This document shows positions 74 through 33,243 of a stretch of 45,324 nucleotides of DNA, piece by piece. Location of the stretch: assembly GCA_025201365.1 (NCBI GenBank), contig JAIXMF010000078.1, forward strand, positions 1 to 45,324, given 5' to 3'. A program made the translations under genes and the position numbers. Within the stretch, counting starts at the first letter, position 1, and each line of letters begins with the position of its first letter. A model generated the notes under the pieces. That model was given only the letters and a program-made list of their open reading frames with translations, ran no database searches and was not told the DNA's origin. This stretch comes from Syncephalis plumigaleata. Lineage: Eukaryota; Zoopagomycota; Zoopagomycetes; Zoopagales; Piptocephalidaceae.

Positions 74-478
74 TTAGAATACGACATATTTATTCAATAT
101 ATGATTGTATGATCTTGTAAATGTAGTTGTGATTGTTGTATCAAGGAATAATAACTTGAATGGCATGGGCACTAAAGGATCTTGCAGCACCAATCCATTC
201 TTGGTTTGAATATCTATATCTACTTGATGATGTCCTCGTCTTGCTTGCTTAGTTTTAGTTAGGCCAAGGAACGGTAAGATCGGTATCACCACACTAGTGT
301 GATCAATGACGCTGTTGACAGCTGTTTGTTCAAAAGGAATGCCAGCAACATTGCCAGTGGCGCTGGTTAGAGGTTCATGCCCTTTAGGAGCACGACGATC
401 CAGAGCAGGTGCTGCTTCAACGGCGACCAGACTGGCGACAACGGCGACGGCAATAGCGATAATGGCAGAGAACTTCAT
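74..478 (-). CDS. small secreted protein A (signal peptide plus dibasic propeptide)
   Basis: Single-exon protein of 134 aa with a hydrophobic signal peptide (about residues 1-22) followed by LDRRAP, a Kex2-like dibasic site, so the mature chain probably starts near residue 30. The first ~60 residues match secreted protein B (19325-19555), including the SATGNVAGIPFEQTA block. A carries one nucleotide fewer than B just after VIDHT, so A reads on into a long C-terminal module (about residues 70-134) while B stops. That module is homologous to the terminal exon of the microexon gene (21353-21539); the four indels between the two are each exactly 3 nt, which suggests coding constraint. The start context AATATCAAC-ATG is shared by all three loci. 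Function unknown; an extracellular peptide or effector role would be inference. Confidence 0.75.
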   Translation of the reverse strand: MKFSAIIAIAVAVVASLVAVEAAPALDRRAPKGHEPLTSATGNVAGIPFEQTAVNSVIDHTSVVIPILPFLGLTKTKQARRGHHQVDIDIQTKNGLVLQDPLVPMPFKLLFLDTTITTTFTRSYNHILNKYVVF

Positions 479-17709: not shown

Positions 17710-18723
17710 TCATTTATGTATAAATAATTCGGATGTCTTCTTGATAGCTAGTCCCACTTTGATGCTAATATAGTTGGAACTTTGTTTCTTACGCTTATTT
17801 CTCATATTACGACAATGTCTAACTAGTATGGTGTTGACGATCATCCTGTAAAATCATTATTGTTATTATTAGTACGCATTGCTAATATCGTCTAATAATA
17901 ATATTGGCACTTACCAGTCCATAGGATAATAATAATCCGGGCTAATAATCTCCAGTTGCAATGCGACAAGTATCGTAAAGATAATATTGCACAATAAGGC
18001 TAGTGTAATGGTCTGAATACCATCCTGCGCTAGTTGCTTCCACGTATCCGAACCATATTTGCGATACTCCTTGTAGGCGGTAGAACAGAAGAGCACCGAG
18101 AAGAACGTGTTGAGTGGCGCGTTGATTCCCGTCCAACACCATATGAATCCGTATGGATAGTAGAATACGCAGCCAAGCTCTTGATCTACCTTGGAAAACG
18201 TGTAGAGCATTAGCACCGCTGGAAATGACAATTGTATTAGCATAAGCGGAATACTGATATAGATTATTCAGCGCTGTTTGTCAAGTACTATATACGCTTT
18301 TTGAGCAAAGATCGTGCTATTACACAGCGAAGCGATGGTCGTGCCACATCCGATAGCCCATATGATTATCCTACAATTAATGAGTACACCCATGTCGGAC
18401 ATGATGGCCATCACCGAAACGATGAGGCCAGTAATGGATGAAATGAAACAACACCACGATGGCATGACTTCCGGGCGGGATATGACCATTTTACTAGAGA
18501 TGATCGAATTATACGCGAATACATGGCACATAATTATGCTGACCACAAGCGACTCTTGAATGCAAAATAGCCGAGCACGTTGATCTAGCATGCTTCCGGA
18601 TAATCCTGCAAAGTAATCGAGAAAATTCACCTCGCCCAGCGGATGAAGTGGGATTCCCCATAGCTTTTCCGCGTCTTGCTTCCATGCCAGCGTTTCTGAG
18701 CTGCTAAAGTGATCTATAGGCAT
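17710..18723 (-). pseudogene. seven-TM receptor-like gene interrupted by one in-frame TGA
   Basis: Full-length homolog of the intact gene at 32287-33243 (same start block with KLWGIPLHPLGEVNFLDYFAGL, same TM order, same NDGIQT/QDGIQT motif). Exons 18723-17915 and 17845-17710. The second exon begins by completing a Trp codon and continues WMIVNTILVRHCRNMR, matching the paralog's last exon. The only lesion seen is TGA at 18268-18270 where the paralog has Leu, between DKQR and IIYISIPLML. TGA is not read as Trp elsewhere here. A recent nonsense mutation, read-through or a sequence error would all fit. No intron removes it. Confidence 0.75.
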
Positions 18724-19555: not shown

Positions 19556-19971
19556 AACTAAGCAAGCAAGACGAGGACACCATCAAGTAGATATTATAGG
19601 TATTCAAGTCATTATTCCTTGATACAACAACAAATGCATTTACAAGATCATACAATCATATATTAAATAAATATGTCGTATTCTGACCATTACACGCATA
19701 ACTAATGTCTATTTCTTTATTACAACTAATCTAAGCGATCATTAATATTAATTGCGAATCAAAGTGTTGCTGTATACTACATTGTTTTTCCATCCAATTA
19801 GCCCAATGATCAGTGGAAACGTAATTTCAATACTCACTCCTTGCACTGTAATAAAATGTCTCACCTTTCGTAGATCTTCAATGACTACATGTACACAGTT
19901 TTTCTTTCCCTCCTTTGTTGCTTTCACCAGCATTATCCACTAAGAGATATTCGGCCTTTTTCGTTATCAAT
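19556..19971 (+). other. 3' flank of gene B, relic of the shared C-terminal module
   Basis: About 19556-19690 aligns with the 3' part of gene A and with the terminal exon of the microexon gene, ending at a matching AATAAATATGTC polyadenylation context. The remainder is the upstream region of the TMBIM gene, with no other feature seen. Confidence 0.6.
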
Positions 19972-20916: not shown

Positions 20917-21352
20917 TCAAGCGGAACATTGTGTTAATAAAATGTTTATTCTCTATGCTTAAAAGATCATGGCCAACATTCCGGCAGTTGCGTGAGATAA
21001 TACATACTATCATGCTCCCCATTGCAAAATACATCGAATAAATGTACTTGCAATGCTCTAGTTTCATTGCCCATGCCATAAATAATCGGCGAGTGTTATT
21101 GACATGGTTCTACTTGACAGCAACATTATGATTACTTTCTTATTACAAGTGTTAACGTGTCTATTCTAATAGTTATACCTTTCTCTCTCTATTCGTTCAC
21201 TTCTCTCTGCTCTTGGATTCCTCGCTGACTCTACCTGCTACACTCCTTCTGCTCTGCTCTTTACTACATTGTGCCAGCATCACTATTTAACACTTGTATA
21301 CACAGGACATGTTCCGTTTAATCATTGTTATTAATAAATGTTAATAAAATAT
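20917..21352. other. convergent 3' intergenic region
   Basis: Separates the 3' ends of the TMBIM gene (+) and the microexon gene (-). AT-rich with TTAATAAA-like repeats around 21330-21350. No gene seen. Confidence 0.4.
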
Positions 21353-21539
21353 TTAAATTGACTCAATAAGCAGATTGACATATTTATTCAATGAATGATT
21401 GAATGATGATCTTGTAGATATGTATGTTGTTGGTCCAAGGAATAATGACTTGAATGGCATGGACACTAAAGGGTCTTGCACCAATCCATTCTTGACTTGA
21501 ATACCTATAATATCTACTTGATGCTGTCCTTGTCTTGTT
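21353..21539 (-). other. terminal exon of the microexon gene, homologous to the 3' module of genes A and B
   Basis: Follows a final 53-nt intron (21592-21540, GTAAGG...TTACAG). The sequence aligns with the last ~65 codons of gene A. In A's frame it is open to 21353 (HQVDIIGIQVKNGLVQDPLV, MPFKSLFLG) and differs by four indels, each of 3 nt. In the preferred reading of the array, translation stops just before this exon, so it would be 3' UTR. It becomes coding only if the 15-nt exon is skipped and the irregular unit at 22527 contributes 8 nt. A polyadenylation-type AATAAATATGTC lies at about 21376-21386. Confidence 0.65.
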
Positions 21540-24500
21540 CTGTAATCATAATGGATTAGTATGAGTATAATCATTGTGGATTATTGCCTTACCATTCCTC
21601 AAGATGTCTAACAATTAACGTGTATTCCATTACAATTAATGCGGCATTTGTTATCGTCGTACTGCCCACTTACAAGCTATCATACAATCATACGCATATC
21701 GTATTTATATTGATTGTAATCAGTGTATAGTCTATGGTAATCGGAAAGATAGCTTACAATCTGATGTATGCCAACATACGTGGAGAACATGCCACATTGC
21801 AATGAGTAATGCGTATACACTGATTGACATGCCCACTTACTTCCTATTATTATTATTATTTACAATCCACATGGATCGAGTAGCACATTATGGTTGAGTG
21901 ATCATACACTGTCATCGGGAATACTAGCTTACTTGCTATTCGATATGATTGTATCGAATTGCATATCGCACATCGATTAGTCGTCCATCATCATGCATCA
22001 TGGCTATGCCTTCTTTTGACTTACATCCTGTGTTGTGCCATTGTGAGTGAGCCATGTTACATGTTGCAATCAATGAATCATCCATCGTAGTCGAGATGAT
22101 AGCTTACTTTCTATTGCCCATTATCGTATATTAGTCCAGTCGTATTGCATTTAGCATAGCATAGCTTGTCATCAATCCATTGACTTGCCTCCTGTTGTAT
22201 GTGATTATGCATGGATTGCATGTCGTATTGCCATTAGCATATGACATATCACGATCGAATCACTGGCTTGCCTTCTGTTTATCCGGTAATACGTGAATCG
22301 TATGCCACATATCGTCATTAGCATGTCACCTATTGCAAGTAAAAGTGCTCACTCACATGCTGTTATACGTGAGTATACACGATCCATATGGCGTACATTG
22401 CAATTAGCACGCCATAGATTGTCATTAGAAATGCCAACTTGCCTCCTGTCATTCACAATCATATGTGAATTGAATGTCGCAATGTAATTAGCGTATTGCA
22501 AATTGCCATTGAAATGCTCCACTTGCCCTTTATTCTACGTAATCAAATGTGAGTCGTATGTTGTCTCATGATTAGTGCACCATAGAATGCAACAGCACTA
22601 TCGACTTACATCCTATCGTATAGAAGTGCACATGAATCGTGTTTGCATTACAATGAGCACATCGTCTATTCTGATCGAAATACTAGTTTACCTTCTGTTC
22701 AATAGTTATACGTCAATCATATGGCATGGTGATGTTGTTGTTAGCACGACATACACGGCAACAATGCGTCAACTTACTTGCTATCATACGCAATCATATA
22801 GACATGGATCGTATCCCGTATTGCAATTAGTGGAGAATACGTGCTACTAGAATTCTAGCCTACCTTCTTCTATCATACATGACCATGCATGGATCGTATG
22901 CCATACATTGCCATTAGCATGTCATATACCGGTATAAGAGTGCCTGCTTACTTCCTATCACGCATAATCATAGATGAGTTGTATGTCGCATTACGATTAA
23001 CATATCGCACGTTGTAACGGTAATGCTAGCTTACAGTCTATCATCCGTAATCATACAAAAGTCGTAGCATTACGATTAGCCCAGCACATATTAAATCCTG
23101 TCTATTGACTTACTTTCCCCCGTTCAGTAATCTATGGAATTGTAAAGCGCATTCTAATGAGTTGATTGCAGTCTGTAATCCTCATGCTAACTTACAACCT
23201 ACAAGGCATAATCATGTTAGTACTTTATCGTATACTAAAATCGTATGTTAGCTTACTCCCTGTTCCGTATAATCGTGTAGAAATCGTGTATAACCATACT
23301 ATTAGTTCATTACACGTCATGATCAATACTCAGCCTTACCTCCTGCCATGCGTAATTATTAGTGAATCATACGTTAATTACAGTTGAACTATCGTAGGAT
23401 GAAATTGATTTGCTAACTTACTCGCTGCCAAATAGAAGCATATGTGGATTGTATGTTAACTCATAGTATTCTGCAATTATCACGCTAACTTACTAGCTGT
23501 TATGCATAATCATACGCGGATTCTGTATATTAATTCATCGTATTTTGTAATCATCATAATGGCTTACAAACTGTCATGCATAATCATATTAGTACATCGT
23601 ATGCTGCAATCGTACATTGACTTACTTGCTGCCACGTAAAATCGTATGGAGATCGGGTAACATAATACGGTTAATCCATTAAATTCACAATCAACATGCT
23701 AGCTTACCTCCTGCCATGCGTAAGTATAAGCAGACATTTGTTAATCATAATTGAACTATCGTATGTTGTTATCGACGTGCTAACTTACTAACTGCCGTCC
23801 ATAATCAGAAGTCATATGTTAAATTCTAACGAGTTCACGTGCTACCGTCCATATAGCAACTTACCGGCTGCCAAGCATAATCGTACATGATTTTTTTTTG
23901 TCAATTTAGAGTAAGCTCATTGCATGTGAAATTTGATACGATTGCTTACAGGCTATCATTCATAATCATGCGGAAATTGTATACCGCGTTCTAATTAGCA
24001 CATCGCCCATTGTCATTATAATACTTGTTTACCATTTGCTGTACATAATTTCATGTAGATAGCATGTCGTATTCCAATTAGTACATAGTCCGATTGTCAT
24101 TAGAATGCTTGCTTACAGGCTATCATTCATAAATGCATAGGGATTATACGCCACACTACAATTAATGCATCGCTTATTATCAGCATACACTAGCTTACTC
24201 TTCGCTGTGCATAATCGTATACAAATCATGTGCCACATTACAATTAGTGCACTGTCTATTGTCATTATAATGTTGGCTTACCTTCTATCGTACGAGATAG
24301 TACGTGGATTGATTGTATTCCATACTCCAATTAATGTCTTGTATGCTTCAATCGAAATAATAACTTACGGCCTATTGTATTCCATAGGCATAGGTGAGCT
24401 ATATTTTGGGATTGTAGTCCACGTGTTAACTTACCGTCTATGTCGTGTGATCAACATACACACAAATGTATATGAATTGTATGTTCATTATGATTATTGT

Positions 24501-25826
24501 GATTATTATTGGAGTGCTAACTTACTTTCTTCTGCATGTATTGTTACAAGTCAATCATGTATCATGCTACAATCAGCATATCGTATTCTATAGTCATCAT
24601 AATGACTTGCCTCCTATTATTCGTAATAATAATAAATACTATGATTAGTATGCTGTATACTGACACTGGAATGTCAACCTACAATCTATGTCGTGTAATC
24701 ATCCATCATGATCCATGTTCCTCATTTCGATTAACACATCGCATATCACGATAGGAATGTCTAGTTACCCTCTGTTACATGGATGCATACGTGAATTGTC
24801 AATCAATTTGTAATTAACTGATCACACATTGCAACGATGATCACTTACAACCTATTACTCGTAATCATATGTGAATCATATGCCATAAGGTAATGAGTAC
24901 ATCGACTAGTAAGACTGGAATGCTAACTTCTTACAATCTATTATGTATGTATGAGTGTGTGTGATGCATTGCTATTAACACTTTATGCATTAGTATGGAA
25001 ATGCCCACTTACATACTAGTGCAATCATATGCGAAGAGAATGATGATGATTGTTGTTATTGTTGTTAGTGCATTATACGGTAATGCTAGACTAGCAACTT
25101 ACATCCTGTTACAGGTCATCGTACATGTATCATGACATGTCAACTTGTAATGAGCACATCGTATGCTATGATCGAAATGATCACCTACATGCTGTCATGT
25201 GTGTGTGTGTGTGTGCGTGTGTGTGAGTGGAATGACAAGTGAGGCAATTGTGCCATTGCAATTAGCATGACGTATACTGCAATCAGAATACCGCCCACTT
25301 ACAATCTATTACACGTCATCATCGGTGAATCGAATGCCACATTCCAACGAGTGCTCGCTTACCCACTAATACATGCAATCATACGTGAATCAAATGGCTC
25401 ATTACAATGATACTAGTAGCTTACAGATCCCTATGCACGATAATCATACGGGAATCGATTGTCACATTCCAATGAGCGTATGCTATATGATCATCGTGAT
25501 TCACAACTCACCTCCTATCACACAAGTATTGCAATCAGTACATTGTATGTTTATTTAGACAGAATATTAACTTACGTCTGCTTCTATAATAGTGACATAT
25601 GATTTTGATTTACATTCCAGTCAACACGATAGATGTCATCCTCACTCGTTGTTTAACTCACCAGCTATGATTGACACATTGTATGTGGCATCATCATCAG
25701 TATCGCAATCAATGTCATACGATATAGACTTACCATCTATTGATTGTCATTAGAAAGACCATTAGATAGTAGCATTACGATTAGTATGTTGACTAGTATC
25801 GATGGTGATGATGATCATAGAAATAC
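21540..25826 (-). repeat. tandem array of ~80-bp intron units with variable 3-nt exons
   Basis: Unit, minus strand: GTAAG.TAGC..TCTAAT.. then GTGCTAAT.., a CATACG-n5-CGTATG hairpin, ..YAG, then the exon. Candidate exons by lowest plus coordinate, 5' to 3': 25734 ATG; 25662 CTG; 25576 AC; 25512 GAG; 25425 GGATCT; 25363 TGG; 25303 ATT; 25189 CAT; 25103 GAT; 25013 TAT; 24935 ATT; 24849 GTT; 24769 AGG; 24683 ATT; 24611 GAG; 24526 AAGAAA; 24435 ACG; 24369 GCC; 24282 AAG; 24199 CGAAGA; 24117 CCT; 24033 CAAATG; 23950 CCT; 23865 CCG; 23789 TTA; 23708 GAG; 23626 CAA; 23568 TTT; 23494 CTA; 23422 CGA; 23340 GAG; 23257 GGA; 23196 GTT; 23114 AAA (acceptor GGG); 23035 ACT; 22952 GAA; 22864 AAGAAG; 22778 CAA; 22692 AAG; 22610 GAT; 22527 (8 nt or dead); 22443 GAG; 22357 CAT; 22272 AAG; 22189 GAG; 22108 AAA; 22025 GAT; 21933 CAA; 21841 GAA; 21758 ATT; 21674 CTT; 21593 (15 nt). 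Most introns are 55-90 nt. Confidence 0.85.
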
Positions 25827-25911
25827 CAGGGGAATTTGATGATACGGATGTTGTAGCATTGACTATAGGCTGGCCATTATTGTTATTGTTATTATCAGCA
25901 GATGATTCCAT
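21599..25911 (-). CDS. microexon gene: about 50 single-codon exons between ~80-nt introns
   Basis: Predicted 84-aa protein. Exon 1 (25911-25827) encodes MESSADNNNNNNGQPIVNAT and eight more residues, ending in phase 1 at a GTATTT donor. Then come 3-nt exons ATG and CTG, and a third exon at 25576 that is 2, 5 or 8 nt by three possible acceptors, all of which shift the frame to phase 0. From there each 3- or 6-nt exon is one or two whole codons: EGSWIHDYIVRIEKK, then TAKRRPQMPPLEQFLREGV, then a charged tail (TEKKQKD, EHKEKDQEILTS), with TGA inside the 15-nt exon. No internal stop occurs in about 55 codons. Two units (23114, 22527) have damaged acceptors and are assumed skipped. The start context (CAATATCAAC-ATG) matches genes A and B. 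No family recognised. About 255 coding nt span 4.3 kb. Expression and splicing are unproven. Confidence 0.6.
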
Positions 25912-26285
25912 GTTGATATTGTCCTTATGGAAGAGCAAGAGAAACAAACAAACAAACAAACGAAATGGAGTAATGAGTATAGAATAGAATAAAAAGAGTG
26001 GATACGCTTGATGATGATGGTAAGATGAATCGATTAGCATTGTTTATTTATAGGTGGAATAGGCGTAATACAACAATGTCCTGCAGAATAGACAAATCGA
26101 TATCATCGCATATCCAATAATTGCTTCTGAATGATGCTGCCATGCATGAATGTCGCCTTTGTCCTAATGAACATCAAACAGGCTACAATTGTGCCATGTC
26201 AATCATATGGATATTGAACAGTAGATACACAATCGAATTGATCACATCTAGACACTCATTTTTGCTTCATTCTAGCGTTAATATC
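25912..26285 (-). promoter_or_regulatory. 5' leader and upstream region of the microexon gene
   Basis: On the minus strand the leader has a (GTTT)n run (about 25945-25960) and pyrimidine-rich sequence before CAATATCAAC-ATG. The retrotransposon begins only about 380 bp upstream of the start codon, so it sits in or next to the promoter. No other gene seen. Confidence 0.5.
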
Positions 26286-26489: not shown

Positions 26490-27404
26490 TTAGATTGATG
26501 CCGACTCGGCATTATCATTAAAAGCTTGAACTAGCTCTTTAGCATTTGCTAGATCGTCCGTGGATTGCCATGTCATCTCGTGGTCTGCGTATCCTTTCCA
26601 TTTGACTAAGTATTGTGTCTTACCGCGTCTTGTACGTTTACCGACGATTGCTTCAACTTCGTATTCTTCTTCGTTATTAATAATAATTGGTGGAGGGGGA
26701 GGCGGATATCGGTTAGCGAATTCGACGGGATTGTTTTCGTACGGTTTTAATAAACTAACGTGGAATACATTATGTATTCTCATGCTATCTGGTAATTGCA
26801 ATTTGTACGCTACCGTCGATACACGCTCGATGATTTTGTAAGGGCCTGTAAATTGATGCGACAACTTACGCTTAGGTCGATCACGACTTACTTCCGGTGT
26901 CAAGTTCTTAGTTGATAGTAGAACTTGTGTACCAACCTCGAATTCCACTTCTCGTCGCTTTTGATCTGCATGTTGCTTTTGTCGTTCTTGTGCCGTTTCC
27001 AGCGCATCCCGTGTCGTTAAATAAATATCGTTCAACTTCTGTAAAAAGGTTGCTGTGCTTTCTATGTTAGTGTCTTTGTTGAAATCGTGACGTCGAGCTA
27101 GGTCGTCAGGCATGTAGGGATGATGGCCTAAATCGGTGTAAAAGGGCGAGTAACCGGTCGATGATTGTTTAGCGTTGTTGTAAGCGAATTCAACAAGTGC
27201 CAAGTGCTGATCCCAATCATTTTGTTGATGGTTAACACATGTACGCAGAAGTTGTTCCAATGTGCGATTGGTGCGTTCCGTCTGGCCGTCTGTCTCGGGG
27301 TGGAAGGCTGTAGACATAAGTATGCGAACGTCGAGTATCTTGTGTAATTCCTGCCAGAATTTGCTTGTGAATTTCGCATCGCGGTCGCACACAATCGAAC
27401 GGGC
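26490..27404 (-). CDS. retrotransposon Pol: integrase C-terminal part with chromodomain (frameshifted)
   Basis: Continues the integrase core in the -1 frame: second catalytic Asp (VCDRDAKF) and Glu ([16 protein letters not shown]) of the D,D,E triad, then the GPY/F-type module ([13 protein letters not shown]) and a C-terminal chromodomain ([30 protein letters not shown]). Chromodomain integrases steer insertion toward histone-marked chromatin. No slippery heptamer sits at the break, so it reads as a mutation or sequence error rather than programmed shifting. Confidence 0.92.
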
Positions 27405-30030
27405 ATACCATGTAAACGCATGATGTTGTTGACAAACAGCTGCGCAACGTCAACTGCAGTCGCCGTCGTCTTCATAGGTATGAAGTGGGCTCGTTTCGTG
27501 AAACGATCTACGACGACGAAGATAGCGTCATAACCTGCCTTAGTACGCGGTAATTGTACTATGAAATCCATGGAAATGTCGCGCCATCTTCCTTCTGGTA
27601 TTGGTAAAGGTTGTAGAAGACCACCAGGTAACTGCTGCGAGTGTTTCGTGCGTTGACATATCTCACAAGATTTGATATATCGTTTAACCATGCTTGATAG
27701 ACCGGGCCAATAGTATTTGCGTTTGATTGCCGCTATTGTCTTTTCTTCACCGAAATGTGCAGCTAGTGGTGCATCGTGATGGTCGTTGAATATATCTAAA
27801 TAAAGATCATCGTACTTGGGGATGCATAGCCTTGGTTCTATTCCTTTCATTTCATAAATTAGCCCATAATCGTCACACCTGAAATGTCGTAATATCTTTC
27901 GCGTTGTCTTATTACTAATTTTCTTCCCTCCCAACAAAACAGACTTTACACCCGTAAAGTAATCGTCATGATCGTAACCTGTTAGGATTCGTTGCTGGAA
28001 GGTGGTGAGATCGACTGAGTATAACGTGTTGCAGATGTCGGCCATACGACGAGACAACGCGTCCGCTACGACGTTAGTACGGCCAGGTTTGTAAACGATA
28101 TCGATATCATACCCGCGCAGGAGTGTAAGCCAACGTGATTGTCGCGCTAATAGTACATTTTGTTGTTTAAGTAGGTGTGTGAGTGGCTCATGGTCTGTAT
28201 AGAGAACAAAACGGCCATAGCTGAGGTAAGGGCGCCATAGACGCACCGCTGTAAGTGCTGCTAACATTTCCTTGTCATACGCAGCGTATTTCTTCTCGGC
28301 AGTTTGTAGTGTACGCGACATGAAAGCAATAGGGTGTTCGATGTCATCTATCTCTTGTGATAATACAGCACCGATTGCGTAATCAGATGCATCGGTAGTG
28401 ACAATGAATGGTACGGTAACATCAGGTATCGCTAAGACAGGTGCAGTGACTATAGCTTTACGCAATGTATCGAACGCTAATTGTTGTGCTTCCCCCCATG
28501 TAAACGGTACATCCTTCTTAGTCAATTGACTTAGATGTCGTGCAATATCAGCATACCCACGAATAAACCGTCTATAATAACCGGTTAATCCCAAGAATGA
28601 TCGTAATTCTTTTAAATTACTGGGTATTGGCCAATTAGTAATGGCCGTTACCTTATCATGTAGTGGTTTTATACCCTCGCAACCAATATTATGTCCCAAG
28701 AATTCCACCTCCTCTTTACCGAACTCACACTTGCTCAGTTTCGCATAAAGCTTATGTTCCCGTAACAGTTCTAATACCTGTCTCAAATGCAATTCATGTT
28801 CCGCATGATTTTTACTAAATACAAGTATATCATCTAGGAATATCACTACACATTTGTCTAACAATTTGTGAAACACGTTTTGCATTAAACGCATAAATAC
28901 AGAGGGCGCGTTAGTTAGACCGAATCCCATTACTGTCCACTCGTAATGCCCATAGCGTGTTCTAAACGCTGTCTTGTGAATATCATCCTCATGTACTCTA
29001 ATTTGATGATATCCACTTCTCAAGTCGATCTTTGAGAACACCTTAGCCCCATGTAGTTGATCAAACAATTCGTCGATCAACGGTAACGCATAACGATCAC
29101 GTATCGTTTGCGCATTTAGCATTCGATAATCCACACACATTCGCAAATCACCCCCTTTCTTTTTAACAAACAGTACAGGTGCACCAAATGGTGATGTACT
29201 TGGCCTAATAAAGCCTTTTTCTAACAAATCATCTAATTGTCTTTTTAACTCATCTAATTCTTTCTTTGCTAAATGATAGGTGGGCCTGAATGGTGGCTGC
29301 TGATGTGGGATTAGATTGATACGTATATCAATATCGCGCTTAGGCGGTAATCCCGGCGGTAACTCGTCAGGTCCCACATCTGCAAACTCACTCAATAATC
29401 GAGCATAGCGCCCGTGCAATGGATTATTATTTTCTTTTGCCTCTTTTGTTTCTTGTACCATTGCTAATAAAAATATATCATCATCTTTTAACTTCTTAAC
29501 CTCTGCTAATGTCATCAAAGTGGATTCAACGCTGCGATGATTTGATTGCTCAACCGTGGAATTGGCCATTGATTCAATGATGCCAGAACTCCAATCTATT
29601 TGTGCCTCGTGTCTTCGTAACCATGGCATACCTAGTATTGCGTCATAATTGCCCAATTTCATTATAGTGAAGTCAACACTTTCTTCAAAATGATTGTAGA
29701 CTGTAGGCACTTTATTTGCAACACCAGATACGCTACATTCCGCACCATTACCCAATTTTACGTTTGATCGCTTGGCTGTTGTATTCACATGTACTTGTGC
29801 TTTTCCAGCAAATTCTGTGTCCATGAAATTTGCAGATGCGCCTGAATCGATAAGTACATGGGCAGTAACACCGTTAATGATAGGTGTTACCGTGAGCAAT
29901 CCGGAACTAGTGTTTCCTTGGATGAGCGAGAACAGCTCGAATCCAGGTGGGATCTTGGGTGTTGGAGTAGTAGCGGCGACCTGGCCGTCAGTAATAACGC
30001 CGCATTCGATTACTGACGGTCGTCGTTTCC
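27391..30030 (-). CDS. retrotransposon Pol: protease, RT, RNase H, integrase N-terminal part
   Basis: Open in the -1 frame relative to Gag from the slippery heptamer onward. Domains in order: aspartic protease (LIDSGAS), reverse transcriptase ([10 protein letters not shown]; catalytic FLDD in place of YxDD), RNase H ([15 protein letters not shown]), integrase HHCC zinc motif ending CEICQRTKH, and the first catalytic Asp region ([11 protein letters not shown]). The frame breaks at about 27400, just before the second catalytic Asp, where one C appears to be missing from a CCC run on the minus strand. Confidence 0.92.
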
Positions 30031-30843
30031 CTGGTTGTCGTCCGCGTTCGGTGGGTGTTGTATGTTATTGGCTTGTTGTTGATTGTTGTTGAAGTTACGA
30101 TTGTTGTTGTAATTGCGGTTGTTGTTGAAGTTACGGTTATTATTGTTGCGGTTGCGACAATTCCGAGCTATGTGACCGCGTCCATTACACTCATAGCATC
30201 GTATGGCGTTGTTGTTGTTGTTGTTACGATTGTTGCGGATTCCTAGGCTGTTTAAAGCTTGCGCTAACACGTCCAAGTCCATAGGTACCGGTCCGTTTTG
30301 TGGTTTAGGTTGGGCTCGCGCTAATTGTTGTAATCCATGCTTCCTTGAATAATAAAAAGCTCTTGTTACCGTGAAAGCCTCGTTAATATTGTGAACATTG
30401 TTCCGGAATGAATCAGCTAAGTACTCGGGTGGCAAGGTGAGACGGAACGATGTTACAAGCTCCATATCGCCTGCATCTGAAATTTTACTGCGTAGCGCGG
30501 TAAATTGGGTGATATGTTCTTCGATGTCTTGATCTTCTGTCCAGCGTAGTCTGGTCAACTCTAAGCGCGCGATATCGGCGGATTTGTTACCGTTGAAACG
30601 GTCCATAATACCGTTTCTCATTTCTTGCCATGTGGTGTACGGTGTGGCTCCTCCTCGTATTGATTGGTACCAGACAGCAGCGGCACCAGATAGTTGTTGA
30701 GCTGCTATCACCAATTTCTGAGCATCGGTCCATTCTCCTAGCGTCCATGCATCATCAACCATGTTACACCAATGATCCACTGGAATCGAGGAATCACCGG
30801 TGAACTTCTCGGTGTGGGTGAGTGGTGATCGAGCGGGATTCAT
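30010..30843 (-). CDS. retrotransposon Gag with CCHC zinc knuckle
   Basis: 277 aa from ATG 30843. The capsid-like region ([39 protein letters not shown]) is typical of Ty3/Gypsy Gag. It is followed by one CX2CX4HX4C knuckle ([14 protein letters not shown]) and a very Asn/Arg-rich tail of RNFNNN-type repeats that probably binds RNA. The heptamer GGGAAAC (30025-30031) lies in the correct Gag frame five codons before the stop and overlaps Pol in the -1 frame. Confidence 0.93.
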
Positions 30844-30918: not shown

Positions 30919-31125
30919 GCGACTAACGCAATGACGGTGCGACTAACGCAATGTAACGGTACGACTAACGCAGTGACGGTGCGACTAACGCAATGTAACG
31001 GTACGACTAACGCAATGACGGTGCGACTAACGCAATGTAACGGTGCGACTAACGCAATATAGCAGTGCGACTAACGCAGTATGACAGTACGACGAACGTA
31101 AAAATAGCAATGCGACTAACGCAAA
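30919..31125 (-). repeat. tandem ~20-22-bp repeats in the element's 5' leader
   Basis: About ten copies of a unit containing CGACTAACGCA (plus strand) alternating with variants of ATGACGGTG and ATGTAACGGT. They lie between the primer binding site and the Gag start, in the expected packaging/leader region of the genomic RNA. The copies nearest the LTR are the most diverged. Confidence 0.85.
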
Positions 31126-32286: not shown

Positions 32287-33243
32287 ATGCCATTAATCGA
32301 CTTTAATAATTCGAATAATACGAGTTGGATGGAGAATGCTTCGAAACTATGGGATATTCCACTTTATCCACTTGGTGAGAGTAACCTTCTCGATTACTAC
32401 GCGGGGTTGACGGCTAGTAGCATGGAGGAGCAACGTGTTCGATTAGCAGGTATACAAAAGGAATTGCTACTAGCGATCCTTGTAGTGGGTGTGTTCACCT
32501 ATAATTCCAGTGTATCCATCAGGATGGTCATGGCACGCTCACAGGCCATATCATCGTGGTGTTGCATCATTACATCGATTTCGGGATTAGTTATCGGAAT
32601 AATGAAGGTATTCACCATGATTGGCGTGCTAGTCAACTGTCGAATGATTATATGGTCAGTTGGATTCGGTATCGGAATAGGCACATTTTGCAATAGTATC
32701 ATTTTGTTGCAAAAGGCGTACATCATACTTGATAAACAAAAGCTACTAGTCTATATCAGCTTCCCGTTCATGCTGCCTCAACTATTCTTCTCACTAGTAA
32801 TGATGCGGTTCACCTTTATTGGTTTGGAAGTAAAGGACGGATGCACGCTGTATTATCCGAGTTTTTTCGTTTGGTACTGGATTGGCATAAGCGCGCCTAT
32901 TAATACAATTTTCTCGTTTATCTTTTGTTTCTTCGCCTATAAGCAATATCGTCGATTTGGTTCTGGTACTTGGAAGCAGTTGACGAACGACGGCATACAA
33001 ACCATTGCACTAGCACTATTCTGTAATGCACTATTCAGTGTTCCCATTGTTCTTCAGCTAAAGTCATTTAATGCCGATCATTTATATGTCGTTGACTGGT
33101 AAGCGATAATGGTTGAGCGATATCGATTGAGCTAACGAATACACCTACGTACAACTAGGATTGTCGTATCCACAATATTAATTAATCATTGCAATAGAAT
33201 GCGAAAAATGATCGGATTTAGATATCGATCACAAAGTTATTAA
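32287..33243 (+). CDS. seven-TM receptor-like membrane protein (intact paralog)
   Basis: Two exons (32287-33098, 33159-33243) giving 298 aa. The soluble N-terminus (KLWDIPLYPLGESNLLDYYAGL) is followed by hydrophobic segments (LLLAILVVGVFTYNSS, CCIITSISGLVIGIM, MIIWSVGFGIGIGTFC, ISFPFMLPQLFFSLV, WYWIGISAPINTIFSFIFC, IQTIALALFCNALFS) and, after the intron, WIVVSTILINHCNRMRK. That last exon matters: without splicing the frame would stop right after the Trp codon, but donor and downstream exon are both conserved in the 17710-18723 copy. The topology is GPCR-like but no DRY or NPxxY is obvious. Ligand unknown. Confidence 0.8.

Follow-up and report, generated by a model that had tools for sequence, protein, structure and literature searches.

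How few nucleotides can the exons of a gene hold when this holds for the gene as a whole? The question is raised by an array on the minus strand of contig JAIXMF010000078.1 of the fungus Syncephalis plumigaleata (assembly GCA_025201365.1). The whole stretch of DNA that was analysed, positions 1 to 45,324 of this contig (45,324 nt), is called the window here. A preliminary description had taken the array for a gene written mostly one codon per exon, and had named a satellite mimicking splice sites as the obvious alternative. Based on the sequence analyses described below we consider it very likely that the array is a protein-coding gene, and that it belongs to a large family of S. plumigaleata genes in which most exons hold one codon.

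Structure of the microexon array

A complete tiling of the array yielded exactly 52 microexons, flanked by exon 1 and the terminal exon (coordinates of all features are given in Table 1). The tiling favours good donors, acceptors and branch-like motifs, leaves exon length free between 1 and 18 nt, and does not impose a frame. Forty-three of the microexons have 3 nt, five have 6 nt, two have 8 nt, one has 18 nt and one has 15 nt; the 51 introns separating them are 55–111 nt long, with a median of 79 nt. The same numbers as in the preliminary description (about 52 units, 43 of 3 nt and five of 6 nt) were thus obtained by a tiling that is free of length and frame rules. That every exon is a multiple of three, as had been claimed, is correct for 50 of the 52 microexons but not for the two 8-nt exons, which shift the phase. 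Exon 1 and the terminal exon are in place on both sides of the array as had been described, the terminal exon being best read as 3′ untranslated region (3′UTR), as the stops in the last microexon suggest. When the limit for intron length was raised to 180 nt, the best tiling of the window contained 51 microexons (one was dropped), and the frame was still open.

The pattern YAG-N3-G[TC][AG]AG has 39 matches in the 4,372 nt from 21540 to 25911 that make up the array, compared to 0–3 matches for any other spacing between 0 and 12 nt. Outside the array it occurs twice in the remaining minus strand and twice on the entire plus strand. Dinucleotide-shuffled versions of the array contained on average 0.39 matches (maximum 2), and none of 100 could be tiled.

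The joined exons of the window gene give an open reading frame (ORF) of 97 codons that is open all through. The main run is in phase 0 and a shift follows after microexon 41, a sequence that is identical in five other loci of the window type (those where the pattern was found). In the preferred frame the stop codon (TG^A) straddles the last junction. A reading of the gene in frame 0 throughout was set aside, since the phase-shifted frame of the full tiling is open and matches the intronless homologue P0135, which is described further below.

Conservation of splice dinucleotides and variation of codons

A tandem satellite that mimics splice sites, with no gene present, would be in agreement with the repetitive nature of the units (in the tiled models, neighbouring introns are on average 73% identical) and with the numerous arrays. 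The comparison of related units bears on this view. In 179 unit pairs, which are not fully independent and whose partner need not have been called, the A and the G of the AG changed 0 and 0 times, and the G and the T of the GT 0 and 3 times, while about 10.6 changes per flank site are expected (introns change at about 6% per site). Exon bases 1, 2 and 3 changed 47, 26 and 26 times in the same pairs (15–26%). The single-base exon changes comprise 30 non-synonymous and 2 synonymous changes and 2 that involve a stop, compared to an expected synonymous share of 29% (p = 0.0016).

We also compared the window array to its near-duplicate L061, using 35 of the 52 units, namely those with alignable flanks. 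The splice dinucleotides differ at 0 of 140 positions and the intron flanks at 166 of 2398 (6.9%; p = 1.3e-4). All exon changes fall into five units, and 30 of the 35 alignable exons are unchanged. As a test of the gene it had been proposed earlier to ask whether AG and GT change as readily as the repeat around them; they do not drift in this comparison and are frozen family-wide. In the middle of the two arrays the central codons and introns cannot be aligned, as if replaced by an exchange of units.

Because the splice dinucleotides hardly change where about 10.6 changes per site are expected, satellite mimicry was rejected at the sequence level: site-specific constraint is present at these dinucleotides, while introns drift. 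The mostly non-synonymous exon changes, the failure of shuffled sequences to tile, reading frames that stay open through up to 44 microexons, the match of joined exons to intronless copies and a public protein model that holds the codons also speak against a satellite, which we regard as extremely unlikely.

Among 500 distinct 3-nt exons there is a single stop (in locus L021), while 8.6 are expected from positional composition. The 3′UTR exon of L021 is interrupted, and its stop exon, as well as some exons of 12, 18 or 22 nt called in loci of the window type, are caller errors or decayed units. In shifted frames of the codon runs, stops make up 61 of 489 positions in the +2 frame and only 8 of 489 positions in the +1 frame.

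Two neighbouring codons are the same in only 22 of 286 pairs. Introns that are alike and neighbouring codons that mostly differ fit a growth of the arrays by duplication of intron-plus-codon units, with change concentrated in the codon. Both selection and exon-targeted mutation could cause such codon-focused change, and the excess of non-synonymous changes favours selection.

Related loci in the genome

Searching the 32.6-Mb genome for the terminal exon resulted in 150 scored matches among 189 candidates, some of them partial and some on possibly duplicate contigs. Positions 21377–21523 of the window match the family terminal exon (HQVDI) with E = 2.1e-11. A pattern describing a donor with two more consecutive units behind it matched 2,171 times genome-wide and 12 times in the reversed control.

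Chains of at least four microexons were present at 44 of 50 terminal-exon loci examined (26 of the 30 best and 18 of 20 others), which is a non-random sample because the 20 others were chosen by hand and copies with a long open frame were set apart. The 50 loci consist of the 30 best terminal-exon matches and 20 that were hand-picked from ranks 31–57, with the long-open-frame copies set apart. Seven of these ranks were omitted: three with a long open frame (intronless candidates), one with a short upstream region, two that were already included (one of them the window) and one that was skipped. At 47 loci the chain caller found 623 exons, of which 562 have exactly 3 nt, 612 are multiples of three and 11 are not. 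The caller uses a flat prior for exon lengths of 1–30 nt, but 3-nt units served to train its splice-site weights, and its length result is therefore not wholly independent. On the opposite strand of the loci it found no chain beyond one exon, except for the mis-oriented locus L088; this locus adds none of the 623 exons and no query units to the pair comparison, and its array was counted from the 12-exon chain on the other strand.

A complete tiling with no length or frame rule succeeded at 19 of 22 loci; five loci lacking the terminal-exon pattern had been left out of this set, and loci lacking the exon-1 pattern had been passed over. In fourteen of the 19 models (13 distinct ones, L026 and g026 representing the same gene) the frame stays open from the ATG up to a stop within the last microexon, and the number of microexons is 15–44. 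Each of these 14 has exactly one exon of 3n+2 nt, located near the 5′ end, and no exon of 3n+1 nt, and in all of them the last microexon ends with TAAGC[AG].

Gene architecture and two types of family members

Relatives for which the 5′ end was read begin like MKFSAVIAIAVAVVALTSLVAVEASPVLERR, with a leader that by eye resembles a signal peptide, followed by an RR site that we take to be Kex2-like; the exon ends in phase 1. The leader exon is followed by a few exons of 3n nt, one 3n+2 exon that restores phase 0, and the codon exons. The last microexon has 9–15 nt, ends in a stop plus three bases and precedes the terminal exon. An alignment of 17 proteins (13 from microexon genes, 4 from intronless copies), all found through the leader or chosen for it, showed the leader in common and little else, with the RR site in 16.

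By eye, neither a hydrophobic leader nor an RR site is present in exon 1 of the window gene (MESSADNNNNNN...). Since exon 1 lacks both features, though the terminal exon is shared, the window gene represents a second type with the same architecture. Its intronless relative, likewise devoid of a leader, belongs to this type as well, the product of which is probably not secreted.

Three metagenome proteins (P0143, P0149 and P0156) have a similar leader and RR site and are probable environmental relatives of the family. Protein P0152 of S. pseudoplumigaleata has a similar leader as well (E = 1.9e-5).

The splicing may be as proposed and the terminal exon nevertheless be translated, in another frame that adds a common C-terminus (HQVDIIGIQVKN...). 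This frame is open in nearly all listed matches, though these were selected by protein similarity; public models, e.g., P0134 and P0140, read through into it, and the low number of stops in the +1 frame of the codon runs would also be consistent with it. Against this, 27 of 47 called last exons end in TAA plus three bases (the other 20 chains end at a 3-nt exon), the TAAGC[AG] end is common to 14 of 14 in-frame models, intact intronless copies have their stop at this position or slightly before it, and an AATAAA lies inside the terminal exon. We consider translation of the terminal exon unlikely. A coding C-terminus had been suspected from the ORF at 74–478 of the window, which enters the terminal exon, and was set back because L001 and other intact copies stop earlier.

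Intronless copies and public gene models

Fifteen intronless candidates were read, and an intact frame up to the stop was found in five of them (L001, L028, L067, L071 and L073). These intact copies stop at the same place as the microexon genes or just before. One intronless family protein is 100% identical to the hypothetical protein BDF22DRAFT_672195 of S. plumigaleata. Copy L001 is no plain retrocopy, because it shares the upstream TATA region with the microexon gene L005; both have GGCTATAAATCGAGCAC upstream of their own exon 1.

The joined 5′ exons of L094 and L079 correspond to 36 contiguous bases across seven junctions in the intronless copies L019, L064 and L066. The model of L094 derives from the unsupervised tiling, while two exons of L079 were read by eye. 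Intronless matches across six or seven junctions were also found for L030, g013 and g012, and the mature peptide of microexon gene g027 matches the intronless L001 with E = 1e-8.

For the window gene, a single comparison to its intronless homologue P0135 (BDF22DRAFT_742100) gave E = 3e-11 over 40 residues. The matched part of P0135 is contiguous at two places in the genome, and on C318 a terminal-exon match follows about 60 nt downstream. Without exon 1 the window microexons reach a score of 76 against P0135, compared to 19–20 for the other frames and 28–36 for the unspliced DNA. When the order of the 3-nt exons of the window was shuffled 5000 times, the best score was 62 and none reached 76.

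The public model P0128 (BDF22DRAFT_685685) agrees with an independent tiling of 47 microexons at PPIHWKD, KTYEMHFENGKGCMFSNG, PGWISPSD and IGPVQ, and 38 of its residues each match one predicted 3-nt exon. A contiguous genome search with the part of P0128 behind the leader finds just the last 25 residues. P0140 and microexon gene g009 have 26 post-leader residues in common. No contiguous genome match was found for the predicted mature peptide of g009 or for the mature part of P0132, such empty searches being weak when taken alone. Most of the mature part of P0130 is contiguous, in two pieces, so that the codon type does not comprise all annotated members. Transcript data presumably underlie the public models of the codon type. 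Taken together, open joined frames, intronless matches and the match to a public protein model support the earlier interpretation of the array as a split gene.

Observations that argue against a split gene

Several observations weigh against a gene that is spliced together codon by codon. Searches of Pfam and PDB gave nothing convincing, and no protein family was recognised. Matches to the 15 intronless candidates that span six or seven junctions were obtained for only 4 of the 19 tiled models (L094, L030, g013 and g012). They sit in the conserved 5′ exons and not in the hypervariable codons; beyond exon 1 the remaining tiled models share just short stretches with the candidates. The frame of the window gene beyond microexon 41 rests on one 8-nt exon, and between the window and L061 the rate of exon changes (12 of 136) is not different from the intron rate (p = 0.39). 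Three of the 22 loci resisted tiling, and five models from the other 19 are out of frame. P0128 skips three called exons that lie among its matching segments and departs from the tiling at the start and the end of the mature part, and P0128 and P0140 both leave out some called microexons.

Some copies of the family may be decayed, because of the five models that are out of frame and the three untileable loci. It is also conceivable that a once-coding family is partly decayed as a whole, that the window array persists as a pseudogene owing to a recent duplication, and that only some relatives are expressed. The broken frames (5 of 19), the loci that resist tiling (3 of 22) and the frameshift in the intronless copy at 74–478 of the window would fit such a history. 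The window gene itself, however, tiles completely and yields its full ORF of 97 codons, and its splice dinucleotides are free of changes while 6.9% of the intron sites differ from L061, with 30 of 35 alignable exons unchanged. This makes decay of the window gene rather improbable.

The exons that P0128 and P0140 omit would also suit an array that forms a single huge intron or a set of stacked alternative exons, so that most codons are never included; all window exons but two are multiples of three, hence skipping keeps the frame. This idea is difficult to reconcile with the fact that in 14 of 14 in-frame models one 3n+2 exon alone sets the frame and the last microexon holds the stop, with the full mature part in five intact intronless copies, or with the order dependence of the homology of the window codons. 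We therefore regard it as very unlikely, and keep to the view of a split gene, whose codons would be joined one after the other.

Proposed mechanism of splicing and diversification

A 3-nt exon is too short for an exon-definition complex, while direct pairing is possible for introns of about 80 nt. For this reason we propose intron definition, in which the short introns would be recognised as units. Removal of the introns would proceed largely from 5′ to 3′, so that each codon would join the growing exon before the donor behind it is used.

Syncephalis species live as mycoparasites (PMC6784888). Leader-type relatives would secrete a hypervariable peptide, set free by way of the constant leader and the RR site, and it is plausible that this peptide serves as an effector directed at the fungal host. 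Each codon may act as a cassette between homologous introns, so that gain, loss or exchange of codons would keep the frame; these cassettes would be under diversifying selection. A broader version of this model sees codon-cassette genes throughout the genome, with every residue of a hypervariable peptide as a separately swappable module between conserved introns, variation concentrated in the exon, AG and GT fixed, and many isoforms arising from in-frame skipping; we give this version an even chance.

Features of the window

The coordinates of the gene and of other features in the window are listed in Table 1. ORFs of a Ty3/gypsy-like retroelement, with an end that by eye is chromodomain-like, lie directly upstream of the microexon gene, and a minisatellite adjoins this element. 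Two ORFs for membrane proteins look related by eye. For an OPT transporter of the window, the best hits come from S. pseudoplumigaleata (86%) and S. fuscata (77%).

Table 1. Location of the microexon gene, family fragments and neighbouring features in the window.
Feature	Position	Strand	Remarks
TATA-like box	26046..26052	-	upstream of exon 1; putative promoter element
Exon 1, 85 nt	25827..25911	-	ATG...CCCCTG^GTATTT; codes MESSADNNNNNNGQPIVNATTSVSSNSP; phase 1 at end
Microexon array, 52 exons	21593..25736	-	introns 55–111 nt
Microexon 3, 8 nt	25576..25583	-	phase 1 to phase 0
Microexon 34, 18 nt	23114..23131	-	from unconstrained tiling
Microexon 41, 8 nt	22527..22534	-	second phase shift
Microexon 52, 15 nt	21593..21607	-	final coding exon
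Terminal exon	21350..21539	-	best read as 3′UTR; AATAAA at 21388–21383; 3′ end approximate
Intronless family member	74..478	-	1-nt frameshift relative to near-identical L001 (contig C250); ORF enters 3′UTR
Terminal-exon fragment, isolated	19597..19683	+	terminal-exon search
Ty3/gypsy-like retroelement ORFs	26490..30843	-	
Minisatellite	30919..31124		22/42-nt units
Membrane-protein ORF	18268..18723	-	
Membrane-protein ORF	32287..33102	+	

Significance and comparison with known systems

No published report of a gene family with one codon per exon was found, and the nearest kinds are the micro-exon genes (MEGs) of schistosomes and the bicycle genes of aphids; this statement is provisional. The literature search retrieved no paper that joins Syncephalis and microexons, subscription papers being mostly outside its scope. 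For 3-nt or single-codon exons only microexon work on mouse and plants surfaced, and S. plumigaleata itself was named merely as a reference genome in a binning step.

In genes of this kind dozens of 3-nt exons have to be joined with none lost, which would make them a natural test case for intron definition and for the order of splicing. They also have a bearing on how hypervariable proteins evolve, and automatic annotation will miss or garble them.

Schistosome MEGs have 10–20 exons, mostly of 15 bp (6–81 bp in the body text and 3–81 bp in the abstract of the source), separated by introns of 0.1–5 kb, and their central exons are alternatively spliced (PMC10526429). Like the Syncephalis genes they form a family of a parasite with many tiny exons, mostly of 3n nt, and secreted variable proteins (PMC10526429). 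In contrast, the genes described here have up to 52 microexons, mostly of one codon, and introns of about 80 nt, and no homology between the two families is claimed.

Aphid bicycle genes contain about 17 exons on average, and megacycle has more than 100 microexons for a protein of about 2000 aa, hence its exons are longer (PMC9168663). The view that known microexon genes use far fewer exons, as stated in the preliminary description, does not quite hold in the light of megacycle. Both systems comprise putative effectors that evolve fast and have many small internal exons in a single phase (PMC9168663). The internal exons of bicycle genes are nearly all in phase 2, whereas the main runs of our in-frame models are in phase 0; moreover, exon and codon coincide here, and the organisms belong to different kingdoms.

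Ultra-short microexons of plants, such as the 1-nt exons of APC11 and VPS55, demonstrate that a spliceosome can include exons of 1–15 nt, and there, too, intron loss is revealed by intronless relatives (PMC8831610). Unlike the exons described here, those covered in this source are conserved and isolated, with two adjacent ones in one example, and do not form arrays. In Trichoderma, Xlr2 provides a functional microexon in a filamentous fungus, though it is a single regulated one in a transcription factor gene (PMC11121469).

In recursive splicing a donor directly follows an acceptor and the intron is removed stepwise, which resembles the arrangement found here (PMC13149111). It differs in that an AG^GT leaves a zero-length exon within very long introns (PMC13149111), while 3 nt are kept and introns are short in the array. 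The zero-nucleotide spacing does not occur in the array, compared to 39 occurrences of spacing 3. By comparison with these systems, the Syncephalis family would bring the minimum of exon organisation down to a single codon for each exon, in entire genes and in an entire family, and suggests a third lineage, beside schistosomes and aphids, that builds secreted proteins of a parasite from tiny exons, here in an extreme form.

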